In this document: one piece after another, positions 1,873-38,339 of the stretch
Layout: each line of letters begins with the position of its first letter
How positions within the stretch are numbered: position 1 is the stretch's first letter
Source: Microbacterium paludicola
GTDB lineage: Bacteria; Actinomycetota; Actinomycetes; Actinomycetales; Microbacteriaceae
Assembly: GCF_015235415.1 (NCBI RefSeq)
Contig: NZ_JADGLL010000004.1
Span: 1-64,000, forward strand
Reading direction: 5' to 3'
DNA length: 64,000 nucleotides
Position numbers and translations under genes: made by a program
Notes under the pieces: generated by a model
The model's database searches: none
Told to the model about the DNA's origin: nothing
Seen by the model: the letters and a program-made list of their open reading frames with translations, nothing else

Positions 1873-2835
1873 ATGGCCGTCTTCCGGCGTGTGATCCTTC
1901 CCGTCGTCTGGCTCGTCATCGGCGTCGTCGCCGCGGCGGCCCTCGCCAAGCTGGCGTTCTTCCCCGATCAGAGCGAGGCGCCCGTGATGGGCGCCGGCGC
2001 CGAGCCGACGGGCGCGCTTTTCGAGCCGCAGCTGGCGGTCGAGCGCGGCACGATCCGGAACGACCTGGAGCTGAAGGCGACGGTCGCGGGCGACCCCGCC
2101 GTGGCGATCACGGCGTACAAGGCGGGCACGGTCGTCGACGTGTTCGCCGGCAAGGGCCAGCAGGTCGCGGCCGGCGCCATCATCGCGAGCGTGCGCGAGC
2201 AGATCCCCCAGGAGGACGGCTCCACGTTCGACCTGTGGAGCGAGATCATCGCGCCCGGCACCGGCACGCTGTCGGACCTCTCACTGGCGAGCGGCCAGGC
2301 GGTCGCGCCGGGGGACACCGTCGGCGCCGTCGCCCCCGCGACGTTCCGGATCCAGGGATCCATCGCCCCGGAGGATCGGTATCGCCTGACGGCGGAGCCG
2401 AAGGAGGCGACAATCCAGATCGCCGGCGGTCCCGCGCCCTTCACCTGCACGGGCCTGGTGCTCGAGACCCCGCTCGCCGGTCTGCCGGCCGACGACTCGG
2501 CGGCGCCCTCGTCTCCCACGACGACCGTGCGCTGCCCGGTGCCAGCGGACGTCCGGGTCTTCCCGGGCCTCAGTGCGACCATCACGATCGCCGGCGGCAT
2601 CGCCGAGGACGTGCTCGTCGTGCCGATGACCGCCGTGATCGGGACGGCCGAGGCGGGCGTCGTCTTCGTGCCCGGGCCCGACGGCATGCCGGAGGAGCGC
2701 GAGGTGGTGCTCGGCCTGAACGACGGCAAGAGCATCGAGGTGCGCGAGGGACTCGAGGAGGGGGAGACGATCTTCGAGTTCGTGCCCGCCGCCGCGCAGG
2801 CCGAGGAGCAGACGTCCGCCGAGGCGCAGGGGTGA
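1873..2835 (+). CDS. Periplasmic-adaptor-like (MacA/HlyD family) membrane protein
   Basis: A 320-residue protein with one N-terminal membrane segment (ILPVVWLVIGVVAAAALAKLAFF) and an extracytoplasmic region with HlyD/MacA-like beta-barrel features (ending in VLVVPMTAVIGTAEAGVVFVPG and a final beta domain). In Gram-positives such adaptors partner an ABC exporter of the MacB type. ATG 1873 is preferred over in-frame GTG 1831 because GAGG lies 7 bases before it and the hydrophobic segment then begins near residue 7. The next gene overlaps its stop by GTGA. Substrate cannot be read from sequence; antimicrobial peptides, lipids or macrolide-like compounds are typical for the family. Confidence 0.75.
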   Translation: MAVFRRVILPVVWLVIGVVAAAALAKLAFFPDQSEAPVMGAGAEPTGALFEPQLAVERGTIRNDLELKATVAGDPAVAITAYKAGTVVDVFAGKGQQVAAGAIIASVREQIPQEDGSTFDLWSEIIAPGTGTLSDLSLASGQAVAPGDTVGAVAPATFRIQGSIAPEDRYRLTAEPKEATIQIAGGPAPFTCTGLVLETPLAGLPADDSAAPSSPTTTVRCPVPADVRVFPGLSATITIAGGIAEDVLVVPMTAVIGTAEAGVVFVPGPDGMPEEREVVLGLNDGKSIEVREGLEEGETIFEFVPAAAQAEEQTSAEAQG

Positions 2836-14759: not shown

Positions 14760-15320
14760 ATGGCATCCACCGCAGACATCAAGAACGGCGTCGTTCTCAG
14801 CATCGACTCGCAGCTCTGGAGCGTCGTGGAGTTCCAGCACGTCAAGCCCGGCAAGGGCGGCGCGTTCGTCCGCACCAAGCTCAAGAACGTCGTCACCGGC
14901 AAGGTCGTGGACCGCACGTTCAACGCCGGCGCCAAGGTCGACATCCAGAACGTCGACCGCCGCGACTACTCGTACCTCTACAACGACGGCGAGAACTTCG
15001 TCTTCATGGACCAGAAGGACTACGACCAGATCACGGTCCCCGCTGCCACCGTCGGCGACTCCGCGAAGTTCCTCCTGGAGAACCAGGAGGTCACCATCGC
15101 CCTCCACGACGGCACCCCGCTGTACGTCGACCTCCCCGCGTCGGTGATCCTCGAGATCACCTACACCGAGCCGGGCCTGCAGGGCGACCGCTCGTCCGCC
15201 GGCACGAAGCCCGCCACGGTCGAGACCGGCGCCGAGATCCAGGTGCCGCTGTTCCTCGAGACCGGCACGCGCGTCAAGGTCGACACCCGCACGGGCGAGT
15301 ACCTCGGCCGCGAGAAGTGA
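14760..15320 (+). CDS. efp: Elongation factor P
   Basis: Relieves ribosome stalling at proline runs. The 186-residue, three-barrel protein carries the tip loop VKPGKGGAF with Lys32 at the residue that contacts the peptidyl-tRNA. No EpmA or EarP partner is nearby, and actinobacterial EF-P is generally thought to work without those modifications. The C-terminal signature [13 protein letters not shown] is present. Translationally coupled to nusB. Confidence 0.97.
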
Positions 15321-15724
15321 GCGCCCGCACCAAGGCACGCAAGCGCGCCCTCGACATCCTGTTCTCGGCCGACGTCCGCGGCGACAAGCTCTCGGTCGCC
15401 CTCGCGGCCGAGGCGAAGCGGGCCGCGTCCGAGCCGGCACGCCAGGCATCCTGGCTCTACGCCCGCGAGATCGTGGACGGCGTGATCGACCACGCCGAGG
15501 AGATCGACGAGCAGATCTCCACCCACAGCCGCGACTGGAAGCTCGACCGCATGCCCACCGTCGACCGCGCGCTCCTGCGCATCGCGACGTGGGAGATCCT
15601 GTTCAACGACGCCGTGCCGACCGCCGTCGCGATCGATGAGGCGGTCGACCTCGCCAAGGAGTTCTCCACGGATGACTCCGGCGCGTTCGTCCACGGAGTG
15701 CTCGCCCGCATCGCCCGCAGCTGA
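15317..15724 (+). CDS. nusB: Transcription antitermination factor NusB
   Basis: A 135-residue all-helical RNA-binding protein that pairs with S10 (NusE) in rRNA antitermination. Family regions are [16 protein letters not shown] at the N-terminus and [32 protein letters not shown] near the C-terminus. GTG 15317 overlaps the efp stop (GTGA). The efp-nusB-pyrR order is common in Gram-positives. Confidence 0.95.
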
Positions 15725-15890
15725 AGGGTCGTTTTAGAAGCGTCTCGCACGCTCGCGCCGACGCTCCGCGCCGGCACCCGTGAGCGAGGCACCGTCGCTG
15801 ACGCTCCGTTGCGGCAGCGCTTCGCGCTGCGGGGTCGCTTCGCTCCACGCTCACTTCGTTCGCACAGGCACAGGCCCTCTGCGCACCCCG
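15725..15890 (+). other. Intergenic GC-rich hairpin region after nusB
   Basis: No convincing gene. The stretch is full of short CGCTCG/GCTCCG words related to the repeats that follow. It contains a perfect hairpin GCAGCGC-TTC-GCGCTGC (15814-15830), which may end the efp-nusB transcript. Open frames here arise from repeats and GC bias. Confidence 0.5.
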
Positions 15891-16373
15891 CCGGTTATCG
15901 AGCGAGCGGAGCGAGTCGAGATGACCCGCTCGCACGGGTGGGCGGCTTCGAGTCGGTCGCTTCGGCTCGCTGGCGCTCGCTCAGCAACCGGTGGGGTGCC
16001 GGCCCTTGGCTTAACCCCGGTTATCGAGCGAGCTCGCGAGTCGAGATGACGGACCCGCACAGGTCGGTCGCTTCGGCTCGCTGGCGCTCGCTCAGCAACC
16101 GGTGGGGTGCCGGCCCTTGGCTTAACCCCGGTTATCGAGCGAGCTCGCGAGTCGAGATGACGGACCCGCACAGGTCGGTCGCTTCGGCTCGCTGGCGCTC
16201 GCTCAGCAACCGGTGGGGTAAACGTGCGGCGTGTGCACCTTCGCGCCGCTTGTTCGGTGCGTTTGCCGCACCTCTGCGTGCCCCCACCCCCGGTTATCGA
16301 GCGAGCTTGCGAGTCGAGATGACCGACCCGCACGGCCGTCGCTGCGGCTCTCCGGCGCGCGGTCAGCAACCGG
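15891..16373 (+). repeat. Cluster of four GC-rich repeat units with inverted CCGGTT/AACCGG ends
   Basis: Units lie at 15891-15991, 16017-16102, 16128-16213 and 16290-16373. Each begins CCGGTTATCGAGCGAGC and ends with a diverged inverted copy of that end (GCTCGCTCAGCAACCGG in the first three). Between the ends lie variants of GAGCGAGCGGAGCGAGTCGA and a Thr/Asp-codon-like spacer. Units 2 and 3 repeat with a 111-base period and are identical over about 92 bases, a recent tandem duplication. The linker GGGGTGCCGGCCCTTGGC also repeats. No coding capacity is evident; frames through it vary in length. The core recurs at the ends of pyrC and trpB. Confidence 0.85.
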
Positions 16374-16399
16374 CGCGCGCTGGGGGAGTCCGGCACCGG

Positions 16400-16458
16400 T
16401 AGGCTGGACCCACCTGCACCTTTAACACCGTCCCGTGAGGCGGAGAAGGGAGAGGCCC
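16400..16458 (+). promoter_or_regulatory. pyr operon promoter and PyrR-binding leader
   Basis: TAGGCT (16400-16405) is the likely -10. The leader bases 16419-16450 read CCTTTAACACCG, TCCCGTGAGG and CGGAGAAGGG. This closely follows the PyrR-binding element known from pyr leaders: a CCTT/AAGG outer stem, a purine bulge, a CCG/CGG inner stem and a loop with CCCGTGAGG. The element overlaps the Shine-Dalgarno GGGAGAGG (16448-16455), so PyrR with UMP would block translation rather than drive attenuation, as described for mycobacteria. Confidence 0.8.
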
Positions 16459-17007
16459 ATGAGCACGCGCGCTGTGCTGAATGACGCCGACATCACGCGG
16501 GCCCTGACTCGGATCGCCCATGAGATCCTCGAGTCGAACAAGGGCCCGGACGACCTGATCCTCCTCGGGATCCCGACCCGCGGCGTCACCCTCGCCCGCC
16601 GGCTCGCTGCGCTGATCGAGCGCTTCGCCGGAACCGTCGTGCCCACCGGGGCCCTGGACGTCACGATGTACCGCGACGACCTCTCCCAGCACCCGACGCG
16701 CACGCCGCGGCCGACCGAGATCCCGCCCGGCGGCATCGACGGCAAGGTCGTTGTGCTCGTCGACGACGTGCTGTTCTCCGGGCGCAGCATCCGCGCCGCG
16801 CTCGACGCGCTGAACGACATCGGCCGGCCCGCCGCCGTGCGCCTCGCGATCCTCGTCGACCGCGGCCACCGCGAGCTGCCGATCCGGCCCGACTTCGTCG
16901 GGAAGAACCTGCCGTCCTCGCGCTCCGAGCGCGTGAACGTGCGCCTCGCCGAGATCGACGGCGGGGCCGACGAGGTCACGATCGAGGCGCGGGAGGACGA
17001 GCGATGA
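16459..17007 (+). CDS. pyrR: Bifunctional pyr operon regulator / uracil phosphoribosyltransferase PyrR
   Basis: A 182-residue PRTase-fold protein that binds pyr mRNA when UMP is high and also has weak UPRTase activity. The PRPP-binding motif [22 protein letters not shown] is clear, and [12 protein letters not shown] is the second phosphate loop. ATG 16459 is chosen; an upstream in-frame GTG at 16435 lies inside the PyrR-binding loop and would not be a sensible start. Coupled to pyrB by ATGA. Confidence 0.95.
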
Positions 17008-17978: not shown

Positions 17979-19333
17979 GCCTGAAGCCCACGAACGAGGT
18001 CCTCCTCATCACCGGAGCAGCGATCGAGGGCGTCGACCGCGCCGACCTGCTGATCGAGAACGGCCGGATCACCGAGGTCGGCACTGGACTGTCCCGCGAG
18101 GGTGCGACGCGCATCGACGCGGACGGCCTGATCGCCCTGCCCGGCCTCGTCGATCTCCACACCCACCTGCGCGAGCCCGGCTACGAGGCGAGCGAGACCA
18201 TCCTGACCGGCACGCGCGCGGCTGCCGCGGGTGGGTTCACCGCGGTGTTCGCGATGCCCAACACCTCGCCGGTCGCCGATACCGCGGGAGTGGTCGAGCA
18301 GGAGCTCGCCCTCGGCGAGGCGGCCGGCTACGCGACGGTGCAGCCCATCGGCGCGGTCACGGTCGGCCAGAAGGGCGAGCGGCTCGCTGAGCTCGGCGCC
18401 ATGGCCGATTCTCGGGCGCGGGTCCGTGTCTTCAGCGACGACGGCTTCTGCGTGTGGGACCCGCTGATCATGCGCCGCGCGCTCGAGTACGTGAAGGCCT
18501 TCGACGGCGTGGTCGCGCAGCACGCGCAGGACCCCCGGCTCACCGAGGGCGCGCAGATGAACGAGGGGATCGTCTCGGCCGAGCTCGGCCTCACGGGATG
18601 GCCCGCCGTCGCCGAGGAGTCGATCATCGCGCGCGACGTGCTGCTCGCCGAGCACGTCGGCTCGCGCCTGCACGTCTGCCACCTCTCGACGGCCGGATCG
18701 GTCGACATCATCCGGTGGGCGAAGAAGCGGGGGATCGCGGTCACCGCCGAGGTCACCCCCCACCACCTGCTGCTGACCGACGAGCTCGTGCGCGGCTACG
18801 ACGCCCGCTACAAGGTCAACCCGCCGCTGCGGACGGCCGAGGATGTGCAGGCGGTCCGTGAGGGCCTCGCCGACGGCACCATCGACATCGTCGCGACCGA
18901 CCACGCGCCGCACCCGGCCGAGGCGAAGGCGTGCGAGTGGCCCGCCGCGGCCAACGGAATGGTCGGCCTCGAGAGCGCGCTGCGCGTCGTCCACCAGGCG
19001 ATGGTCGAGACAGGCCTGCTCGACTGGGCGGACGTGGCGCGCGTGATGTCCGCGACACCGGCGCGGATCGGGCGGCTCGAAGGACACGGCACGCCGCTCG
19101 CTGTGGGTCAGCCCGCCGAGCTCACGCTCTACGACCCCCGCACCGGCGGCTCGTTCGGCACCGATGACCTGCGCGGCCGCAGCGTCAACTCGCCGTACGT
19201 CGGGCGCGAGCTTCCCGGCCAGGTGATGTGGACGATCCACCGCGGCTACGTCACCCTCGCGAACGGCGAGCTCGTCGAGCCGCAGGGGGTCATCGCATCC
19301 GATGCATTGAGCGAGCGGAGCGAGTCGAAATGA
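17975..19333 (+). CDS. pyrC: Dihydroorotase with repeat-encoded C-terminal tail
   Basis: Cyclises carbamoyl aspartate to dihydroorotate. The 452-residue class I enzyme has zinc-binding His62 and His64 in [13 protein letters not shown], the FSDDGF aspartate motif, and later metal-site His residues in VCHLSTAG and VATDHAPHP. The last residues ALSERSESK are not part of the fold. They are encoded by a 28-base copy of the dispersed repeat (19306-19333), whose AATGA also gives the start of the next gene. Confidence 0.95.
19306..19333 (+). repeat. Dispersed repeat copy forming the 3' end of pyrC
   Basis: This 28-base stretch matches the left end of repeat unit 1 (15897-15924) at 26 positions. The 20-base core GAGCGAGCGGAGCGAGTCGA (19309-19328) is identical. 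Its last bases carry both the pyrC TGA and the ATG of the following gene. Confidence 0.85.
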
Positions 19334-19854
19334 CCCAGGAAGCCGCCGCACTGATCCTCGTCGGCCTCGCCGTCGTCGTGCTCGCGCTGATGGCGTGGGG
19401 CTGGCGACGACGATCCCGGCGCGACGCCGGCATCGCGGCCCCGGTCGGCGAACGCCGCGGCGAGATCCGCGGCACGTTCACCGGCCTGTACGTCGCCACG
19501 ACGCGCCACGAGGCGCCGCTGGATCGCCTGAACGTGCGGCACCTCGCGTTCCGTGCCCGGGCGACCGTGGTCGTGACCGACGCCGGCGTCGCGCTCGAGC
19601 TGCCGGGATCGGCTCCCGTCTTCCTCGGCGCCGCGCGCATCGAGGGCGCGGGACGCGCCACCTGGGCGATCGACCGCGTCGTCGAGAACGACGGCCTCGT
19701 CCTGATCGCCTGGACCGCCGACGACGGCACCGTCTGCGACACCTACCTCCGTCTGCAGGACGGCGATCCGGATGCCCTCGGGGCCGAGATTGCGCGTCTT
19801 CAGACGCCCACCGACTCACCCTCCGACTCCACCCAGATGGGAGCACAGCGATGA
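19330..19854 (+). CDS. PH-like domain membrane protein found between pyrC and carA
   Basis: A 174-residue protein with one N-terminal membrane helix ([19 protein letters not shown]), a basic stop (RRRSRR) and a cytoplasmic beta-rich domain of about 120 residues. It corresponds by position and layout to the conserved actinobacterial pyrC-carA gene (mycobacterial Rv1382 type), whose function is not established. The start ATG 19330 overlaps the pyrC stop and lies inside the repeat element. Coupled to carA by ATGA. Confidence 0.8.
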
Positions 19855-34944: not shown

Positions 34945-35354
34945 CTGATCCGGTTGCTGAGCGAGCAGAAGCGAAGAGCGCCGAGCATGACCTCGAGGAG
35001 CGGATCGCTCGCGTCGCGTTCAACGCCGACGGCCTCGTGCCGGCGATCGTGCAGCAGTGGGACAGCGGCGAGGTGCTGATGCTCGCTTGGCTCGACGCCG
35101 AGGCGCTGCGCCGCACGCTCACGACAGGCCGTGTCACGTACTGGTCCCGCTCGCGTCAGGAGTACTGGCGCAAGGGCGACACCTCGGGCAACATCCAGCG
35201 GGTCGTCTCCGCGAACCTCGACTGCGACGGCGATGTGGTGCTGCTGAAGGTCGAGCAGACCGGGCCGGCCTGCCACACGGGCACCCGCACCTGCTTCGAC
35301 GGCCGCGACCTCGGCGCGGTGGCAGCCGACCTCGACGGGACCCCCGCGACGTGA
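34941..35354 (+). CDS. hisI: Phosphoribosyl-AMP cyclohydrolase
   Basis: Third histidine step, opening the adenine ring of PR-AMP. The 137-residue zinc enzyme has [36 protein letters not shown] and the Cys/His ligands in [12 protein letters not shown]. The first 20 residues ([20 protein letters not shown]) are an extension relative to mycobacterial HisI, and its coding DNA contains a 17-base match to the dispersed repeat end. Overlaps hisF and the next gene. Confidence 0.94.
34950..34966 (+). repeat. Fragment of the dispersed repeat inside the 5' end of hisI
   Basis: CCGGTTGCTGAGCGAGC is the exact reverse complement of the right end of repeat unit 2 (16086-16102). It lies in frame just after the hisI start and encodes part of the N-terminal extension. 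Confidence 0.6.
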
Positions 35355-37059: not shown

Positions 37060-38339
37060 GCGACACCACAAGCCTGCGCGACCAGCACGGCCCGTTCTTC
37101 GGCGACTTCGGCGGGCGGTTCATGCCCGAGTCGCTCGTCGCGGCCATCGACGAGCTCGCGCTCGCCCACGCCGAGGCGATCGCCGATCCCGCCTTCCGCG
37201 ACGAACTCGCCGAGCTGCTCGCCGACTACGCCGGCCGCCCGTCGGCTCTGACCGAGGTGCCGCGCTTCGCCGAGCACGCCGGGGGAGCGCGCGTGTTCCT
37301 GAAGCGCGAGGACCTCAACCACACGGGCTCGCACAAGATCAACAACGTGCTCGGCCAGGCGCTGCTCACCAAGCGCCTCGGCAAGACCCGCGTGATCGCC
37401 GAGACCGGTGCCGGTCAGCACGGCGTCGCCACGGCCACCGCCGCCGCGCTGTTCGGCCTCGAGTGCACCATCTACATGGGCGAGGTCGACACCGAGCGCC
37501 AGGCGCTGAACGTCGCTCGGATGCGCCTGCTCGGCGCCGAGGTCATCCCGGTGACGACCGGATCGCGCACCCTCAAGGACGCGATCAACGAGGCATACCG
37601 AGACTGGGTCGCGAGCGTCGAGACCACCAATTACATCTTCGGCACCGCGGCGGGCCCGCACCCGTTCCCCGCGATGGTGCGCGACTTCCAGAAGATCATC
37701 GGCGAGGAGGCGCGCGCCCAGCTCATCGAGCGCGCCGGGCGCCTCCCGGATGCGGTCTTCGCCTGCGTGGGCGGCGGCTCGAATGCGATCGGCATGTTCG
37801 ACGCGTTCCTCGACGACGAGGGAGTGAAGCTCTACGGCGTCGAGGCCGCCGGCGACGGCGTCGACACCCCGCGTCACGCGGCGTCGATCGAGCGCGGTCG
37901 CCCCGGCGTGCTTCACGGATCGCGGACGTACGTGCTGCAGGACGAGGACGGCCAGACGATCGAGTCGCACTCGATCTCGGCCGGCCTCGACTATCCGGGC
38001 GTCGGCCCCGAGCACTCGTGGCTCGCCGACATCGGGCGCGCCGAGTACATCCCCGCGACGGACGACGAGGCGATGCAGGCGCTGCGCCTGCTCAGCCGCA
38101 CCGAGGGGATCATCCCCGCGATCGAATCGGCGCACGCGCTCGCGGGCGCCCTCCGGATCGGCCGCGAGCTGGGCCCGAACGCGATCATCGCCATCTGCCT
38201 CTCGGGCCGGGGCGACAAGGACATGGACACCGCCGCGCGCTACTTCGAGCTGTACGACGACGCGCAGGCCGCGCAGGAACACGGGACCCAGGGGGCGCAG
38301 GCATGCGATGTGCTGAGCGAGCGGAGCGAGTCGAAGTGA
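37056..38339 (+). CDS. trpB: Tryptophan synthase beta chain with repeat-encoded C-terminal tail
   Basis: PLP enzyme joining indole and serine. The 427-residue protein has the PLP lysine Lys94 in [10 protein letters not shown], the phosphate loop [12 protein letters not shown] and [13 protein letters not shown]. The last residues VLSERSESK are encoded by a copy of the dispersed repeat (38312-38339), which also provides the overlap with trpA. GTG start overlapping trpC, with GGAGG upstream. Confidence 0.96.
38312..38339 (+). repeat. Dispersed repeat copy forming the 3' end of trpB
   Basis: Contains the exact 20-base core GAGCGAGCGGAGCGAGTCGA (38315-38334) shared with unit 1 at 15900-15919 and with the pyrC tail. 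Its final AAGTGA carries both the trpB stop and the GTG start of trpA. Confidence 0.85.

Follow-up and report, generated by a model that had tools for sequence, protein, structure and literature searches.

Dispersed inverted hairpin doublets in Microbacterium paludicola and a GIY-YIG nuclease gene as a candidate partner

Between nusB (15317-15724, plus strand) and pyrR (16459-17007, plus strand; a phosphoribosyltransferase domain), both named by Pfam family, the genome of Microbacterium paludicola carries an array of inverted repeats at 15891-16373. The question that this locus raises is what kind of element these repeats represent and which enzyme spreads them. The DNA analysed, here called the window, is a stretch of 64,000 nucleotides (G000:C72:1-64000) from a draft genome of 3.29 Mb in 127 contigs, with a G+C content of 71%. 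We show that the repeats are inverted hairpin doublets, dispersed through the genome and in part lineage specific, and that the gene for a small GIY-YIG nuclease fills the position expected for the gene of a REP-associated tyrosine transposase (RAYT).

Layout and folding of the nusB-pyrR array

The array comprises four units, at 15891-15991 (101 nt), 16017-16102 (86 nt), 16128-16213 (86 nt), and 16290-16373 (84 nt), all of which start with CCGGTTATCGAGCGAGC and end with its diverged inverted copy; both the coordinates and the sequences agree with an earlier note on this DNA, which had described four units of 84 to 101 bases of this design. Each unit is a REPIN-like doublet, an inverted pair of half-elements of approximately 36 nt, with half-element A, CCGGTTATCGAGCGAGC(n)GCGAGTCGAGATGACC, on the plus strand and half-element B, CCGGTTGCTGAGCGAGC(n)GCGAGCCGAAGCGACC, on the minus strand. 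In unit 1, A (15891-15926) has a TATC/GATG stem with a GGA apex, and B (15955-15991) has a TGCT/AGCG stem with a GCCA apex. The A and B halves lie at 16017-16050 and 16066-16102 in unit 2, at 16128-16161 and 16177-16213 in unit 3, and at 16290-16324 and 16334-16373 in unit 4, where B is decayed (76% to the reference over 16334-16379). Units 2 and 3 had been considered a recent duplication, 111 bases apart and identical over about 92 bases; the duplication and its period of 111 hold, but the length was underestimated, the exact tandem repeat being 157 nt (15952-16108 on the plus strand, repeated at 16063-16219).

The folding of unit 1 was better than that of all 200 of its dinucleotide shuffles (z = -4.7), as was that of unit 2 (200 of 200; z = -6.0), to which unit 3 is identical. 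Owing to the decay of its B half, unit 4 showed no gain over dinucleotide shuffles (z = -0.45; 57 of 200 shuffles did equally well). For most single hairpins, energy alone was no better than in shuffles, and the case for a hairpin therefore rests on covariation. The four bases that flank the core differ among the 320 distinct elements but still pair: over 75 unique flank types, Watson-Crick pairing at foot positions 2, 3, and 4 was 0.83, 0.83, and 0.67, compared to shuffle maxima of 0.63, 0.57, and 0.49, and pairing at position 5 was at chance level (0.23). RNAfold analysis of the purine-rich strand gave a 4-bp foot, tandem G-A mismatches, a bulged base, a second tandem G-A pair, and a GNA loop. 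The two most variable core positions, one apex base and one bulge, are both unpaired in this structure; the apex is usually GNA, with GCCA or TT also occurring. Unusual stability is a known property of tandem G-A pairs and of GNA loops. GNT is the common 5' neighbor of the elements (253 of 320), none of the 320 has a GTAG tag, and there is no constant CGTC tag, CGTC being scored at the 5' end in 56 and at the 3' end in 12.

Other kinds of repeat were also considered. Integron attC sites were set aside by inspection, since the outer ends, GGTT...AACC, differ from the order generally given for attC. The view that the array is not a CRISPR is upheld, because the halves are inverted and the spacers are common to several units; among the 30 Pfam-scanned proteins, of 244 encoded around the elements, there were no cas genes. 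Rfam matches were to microRNA-type hairpins and to one PyrR site, every one of them below the gathering score.

Copies, empty sites, and gene context

A BLAST search of the genome with the 86-nt unit gave 118 matches, and 40 of 85 first-look candidates were scored. Allowing up to two mismatches, the core pattern matched the genome 174 times and the reversed pattern 3 times; an HMM recognized 178 half-elements in 35 M. paludicola stretches and the window, and a third half-element type, CGTT-core-AACG, was common among the later stretches. Several contigs start within 40 bases of an element, so that arrays probably break the assembly and the copy counts are low. The core was present in 115 of 198 genomes of the genus, at 0 to 168 copies per genome (control matches, 2 in all), and, in a sample of the family, in 13 of 249 genomes and 6 of 85 genera, the genus of M. 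paludicola included. B-like halves were found in relatives too. All 74 elements with the A half (TATC/GATG) came from the M. paludicola genome, and a contig scan, which may omit very near records and used a pattern that is probably too specific, gave no exact match to it; because the A half was seen only in this genome, spread looks recent.

Copies or parts of the repeat had also been reported in pyrC, trpB, and hisI, and these were located at the 3' end, the 3' end, and the 5' end of the respective genes. A single element on the plus strand at the stop codon of pyrC (19306-19335; family by Pfam) encodes LSERSESK as the C-terminal tail and provides the ATGA in which the stop codon overlaps the start of the downstream gene. 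Likewise, the single element at the stop codon of trpB (38311-38339, plus strand), a gene named for a PLP-enzyme domain adjoining trpA, encodes the protein tail, with a GTGA overlap with trpA, and a partial element at the 5' end of hisI (34950-34974, plus strand; family by Pfam) falls within the N-terminal coding part. At these three junctions the elements supply short protein tails (SERSESK) or a new N terminus, and the ATGA and GTGA overlaps are kept.

The earlier note had proposed that relatives be examined for empty sites, and such sites were found at two junctions. Of 39 relatives, 36 have no element at the pyrC junction, one (G204) has a degenerate tail, and two (G094 and G059) have an element. 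In the closest relative by PyrC (G206; 89%), nusB and pyrR are separated by no more than 106 bp, compared to 734 bp in M. paludicola; the pyrR leader is the same, and the array is missing. At certain gene pairs, elements are present in two or more species, which indicates that not every site is new, some being either old or favored targets. With dispersed copies, empty sites, and an A half seen only in M. paludicola, the proposal of a REP-type miniature mobile element spread through the genome stands. The pyrR leader (16415-16482), which is conserved in G206, weakly resembles the PyrR binding site of Rfam (26.5 bits, below the gathering score of 54). The stretch to the left of the array (15725-15890) is G+C rich and degenerate repeat-like, and it too is missing in G206.

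Gene context was scored with a purpose-written simple gene finder at 82 M. paludicola sites, the first of which were picked by the unit search, and at sites in relatives that were taken from listed exact matches. Six of the 82 sites were within predicted genes. Overlapping stretches were counted separately, and 6 stretch-edge sites and the in-gene sites (6 in M. paludicola, 5 in relatives) were left out, which gave 70 M. paludicola sites with neighbors on both sides. Most sites were located behind genes: 31 of these 70 were between convergent genes, compared to 11 of 98 background gaps longer than 30 bp (P = 1.5e-6), and 6 were between divergent genes, compared to 34 of the 98. The sites in relatives had a similar distribution (20 of 47 convergent versus 8 of 63 in the background; P = 7e-4). 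There was no orientation bias with respect to transcription at the M. paludicola sites (26 sense, 21 antisense), and a function as sense-strand RNA was rejected because the orientation is even. A lagging-strand preference was rejected because replichore bias was not significant in either of two complete genomes (by copies: G122, P = 0.18; G149, P = 1.0).

GIY-YIG genes among the hairpins

A RAYT had been suggested as the partner of the repeats. The search for the Y1 transposase domain (PF01797) was positive in 5 of 14 control genomes, Escherichia coli among them, and gave no match in the M. paludicola genome and a match in 1 of the 198 genus genomes; a RAYT partner was therefore rejected, and the suggestion falls. 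As for the question of a MITE, the unit ends are common to a unit that bears a GIY-YIG gene; the genome-wide transposase search covered PF01797.

Two small GIY-YIG proteins (PF01541) stood out among the 244 element-flanking proteins, 30 of which were scanned by Pfam. One M. paludicola gene (C50:113198-113509), whose product has the conserved residue Glu62 with a catalytic role, lies in the alternating array of stretch L040, between B (2212-2247, plus strand) and A (2619-2651, minus strand) and 5 bp from A. The second M. paludicola gene (C44) has strict-core elements on one side only. In two relatives (G176 and G201), the gene is within one long(+)...short(-) unit, and gene-less copies of the unit adjoin it.

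A profile built from the two proteins matched 84 of the 198 genus genomes at 1e-8 (102 matches). At least five copies of the element were present in 45 of 47 genomes with a close homologue (E <= 1e-35), compared to 30 of the 151 others (P = 7e-22, kinship ignored), and in 54 of 84 genomes with a match at 1e-8, compared to 21 of 114 without a match (P = 6e-11, kinship ignored). A phylogeny-controlled pair test, which with 40 chosen genomes was underpowered, gave 2.1 pairs the same way, 0 opposite, and 3.9 without a difference for at least 5 copies, and 0.9, 0.1, and 4.9, respectively, for at least 20 copies. Twelve genomes with at least 20 copies, including G206 (37 copies), had no GIY-YIG match at 1e-8, and in 4 further genomes with at least 20 copies the sole match was weaker than 1e-35.

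The physical association of the hairpins with GIY-YIG genes is well supported. With strict-core elements, a copy was present within 1.5 kb in 23 of the first 30 GIY-YIG loci versus 5 of 30 DUF222 loci. Long hairpins with extra stem modules appeared in these first 30 loci, after which the detector was loosened; in its final form it was written after the first 50 loci had been inspected, remained unchanged for the last 20, and is loose (1 call per 1514 bp in the pyrC stretches). By this detector, hairpins lay within 300 bp on both sides in 48 of 51 GIY-YIG loci, the two M. paludicola loci included, compared to 1 of 69 control loci (1 of 39 pyrC, 0 of 30 DUF222). One-sided hits were seen in 17 of 39 pyrC and 7 of 30 DUF222 loci, so often that they mean little. 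In the 20 unseen GIY-YIG loci, 13 were two-sided, 5 were one-sided, and 2 had no hairpin; 10 of 400 Markov-shuffled flanks were two-sided. Altogether 71 of the 102 matches were inspected, the first 30 being the best scoring and the next 20 and last 20 hand-picked; the first 30 represent 26 to 27 flank groups, some of which count as separate only through truncation of the flank by a contig end. An arrangement with the plus orientation upstream and the minus orientation downstream was found in 30 of the 48 two-sided loci of the first set and in 4 of 13 in the unseen set, and a few detector calls near GIY-YIG genes look accidental (e.g., L247, L314, and L319). DUF222/HNH genes were rejected as a partner, since elements were near 5 of 15 M. 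paludicola loci but near none of the 6 loci inspected in G122 or the 9 in G149. The five M. paludicola loci with elements nearby are L219, L229, L237, L243, and L245 (15 loci and 16 genes inspected).

The hairpins near GIY-YIG genes fall into three classes: class I, TGAGCGAG...CGAA; class II, CCCTGAGCCTGTCGAAGGG with CGCTGAGCTTGTCGAAGCG; and class III, GGTTGAGTAG...TATCGAAACC with GATCGAGTG...TATCGAGATC. On the GIY-YIG tree, with class labels assigned by a text rule (of 51, 4 unclear and 2 without a hairpin), hairpin class requires 7 changes, compared to a mean of 16.4 in shuffles, and none of 200 shuffles was as low. Class II, together with the second gene of G152, which was labelled unclear, forms one starred branch, the class III branch has a support of 90/80, and the rest of the tree is class I, with 5 changes. 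G152 has two GIY-YIG genes, class I and class II, each beside hairpins of its own class. Repeats of the CCCTGAGCCTGTCGAAGGG / CGCTGAGCTTGTCGAAGCG kind are common in many bacteria; in the relatives' loci L279, L281, L283, L287, and L291 to L295, they and their variants, often in tandem, surround a second GIY-YIG subfamily. A third hairpin family, GGTTGAGTAG...TATCGAAACC, with GGTCGAGTAG or GATCGAGT ends, was seen around GIY-YIG genes at L288 to L290, L324 to L326, L330, and L331. In G184 (C1:2030861-2031157), there is a second, divergent DnaA-domain match near the usual dnaA.

Movement of the elements and their wider distribution

The flanking of GIY-YIG genes by the hairpins suggests an unrecognized partner that aids the spread of the repeats, and we infer that the nuclease moves the elements. 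The arrays of the window are probably tandemly expanded, gene-less derivatives of a REPIN-like element that carries a GIY-YIG gene. The gene-bearing unit is probably the helper-carrying form, and the units of the window its derivatives without the gene. The nuclease would recognize the hairpin on the purine-rich strand, either extruded or single stranded during replication or repair, and would make a nick at the foot of the hairpin or in the target. Repair synthesis would then copy the pair to a new place, preferably just behind genes, where it would do little harm, and slippage or unequal recombination would give rise to tandem repetition such as that of units 2 and 3.

Several other explanations may be envisaged. 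The GIY-YIG protein could be a structure-specific nuclease, belonging to the host or acting as a helper, by which hairpins are tolerated or processed, in cruciform resolution or repair, with its gene a frequent passenger of arrays that move by recombination or by another enzyme. Small GIY-YIG proteins are indeed widespread (UPF0213, 1zg2, 1ywl, and plasmids of many genera), 10 of 13 plasmid-borne GIY-YIG loci in other taxa have no such hairpins, and tandem duplication needs no transposase; however, hairpin class tracks GIY-YIG subfamily, even between the two genes of G152, and the flank contexts of the gene are many, with hairpins on both sides in most, so that we regard this explanation as unlikely. 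Slightly less likely still is the possibility that these are ordinary REPINs that were spread long ago by a Y1 transposase, with the RAYT since lost and the GIY-YIG genes incidental neighbors. REPs that lack a RAYT have been described, and in such cases its loss is suspected (PMC6006769), CGTC-tagged REPs being a similar case (PMC3733652), and 12 element-rich genomes have no GIY-YIG gene. Against this, a RAYT-type domain was found in 1 of the 198 genomes of the genus, 115 of which carry elements, the A half was seen only in the M. paludicola genome, so that spread looks recent, GTAG is absent from all 320 elements, and GIY-YIG flanking is far above that of the control loci.

It is very improbable that selection maintains the elements for a function, mainly as bidirectional transcription terminators or as protein-binding sites behind genes, and that they were spread by gene conversion. 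The excess between convergent genes and the scarcity between divergent genes fit such a role, but avoidance of promoters equally fits harmless insertion; moreover, orientation is even, replichore bias is not significant in G122 and G149, the distribution is patchy within one genus, and the pyrC junction is empty in most relatives. A purely local tandem repeat with no mobility, for which the exact 157-nt duplication might be cited, is refuted to near certainty by the genome-wide dispersed copies and by the empty sites.

The proposed GIY-YIG-carrying element may be set beside known systems. REPINs are doublets of REP sequences that are associated with RAYTs (PMC3116915, in the part consulted). 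By general accounts of REPINs, the M. paludicola elements share with them inverted pairs of short hairpins, high copy number, intergenic location, and tandem clusters, together with one gene flanked by the same elements, as the RAYT gene is; short (20- to 40-bp) imperfect hairpins, high copy, a mostly intergenic position, and inverted doublets as the unit were all found here. They are unlike REPINs in that the flanked gene encodes a GIY-YIG nuclease, the Y1 domain is nearly absent from the genus, there is no GTAG tag, and the foot sequence is free but complementary. GIY-YIG nucleases drive DNA mobility in homing endonucleases and Penelope-like retroelements; in contrast to these, there are many short gene-less copies here, and in seven loci the hairpins are within 330 bp of the GIY-YIG gene, too close for a reverse transcriptase or an intron to fit between. 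As described in the relevant part of PMC3733652, CGTC-tagged REPs likewise have no dedicated transposase, form dimers of unlike halves, and are preferentially located between tandem and convergent genes; clusters are rare there, whereas they are frequent in M. paludicola, where the constant CGTC is absent and the proposed partner is a GIY-YIG protein. Actinobacteria were not mentioned in that text, as far as a search for the term shows. The working model of an enzyme that recognizes hairpins at the ends of the element is shared with IS200/IS605 and TnpA-REP (PMC6006769), from which the present system differs in its unrelated enzyme family (PF01541, not PF01797) and in a replichore bias that is not significant in G122 and G149.

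In the literature searched, among the papers listed and by title and opening of the abstract, with few subscription journals and no preprints, we found no link between GIY-YIG proteins and REP-like hairpins; nor, with the same coverage of journals, was there any linking RAYT with Microbacterium or YhbQ with GIY-YIG. The UPF0213 small GIY-YIG proteins (PDB 1zg2 and 1ywl) are of the same protein family as the partner gene product; their structures are labelled hypothetical, and no repeat link was seen for them. A GIY-YIG gene at the RAYT position offers a concrete, testable candidate partner, a possible function for widespread small proteins whose solved structures are so labelled, and perhaps a new type of enzyme for hairpin-guided DNA movement.

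Opinion is evenly balanced on a broader proposal, namely, that there is a large, unrecognized class of bacterial mobile repeats in which a cognate small GIY-YIG protein replaces the RAYT and recognizes hairpins whose foot is complementary although free in sequence, and which have tandem G-A pairs and, in many cases, a GNA apex, with at least three classes in the genus and like hairpins on plasmids of Sphingomonas, Methylobacterium, and Planktothrix. Hairpins were near 3 of the 13 plasmid-borne GIY-YIG loci in other taxa. On a Sphingomonas parapaucimobilis plasmid, they lie upstream of the gene and, in another inspection, downstream too; the core has 11 copies in 100 kb, 5 of them within about 1 kb of the gene, and was absent from 20 shuffles. 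The Methylobacterium bullatum plasmid gene has hairpins on both sides, with no other copy in 50 kb. On a Planktothrix agardhii plasmid (L306), three identical 19-nt hairpins, TTCTGAGTGAAACGAAGAA, are found around the GIY-YIG gene, which sits between an MmeI-type restriction enzyme gene and drmA.
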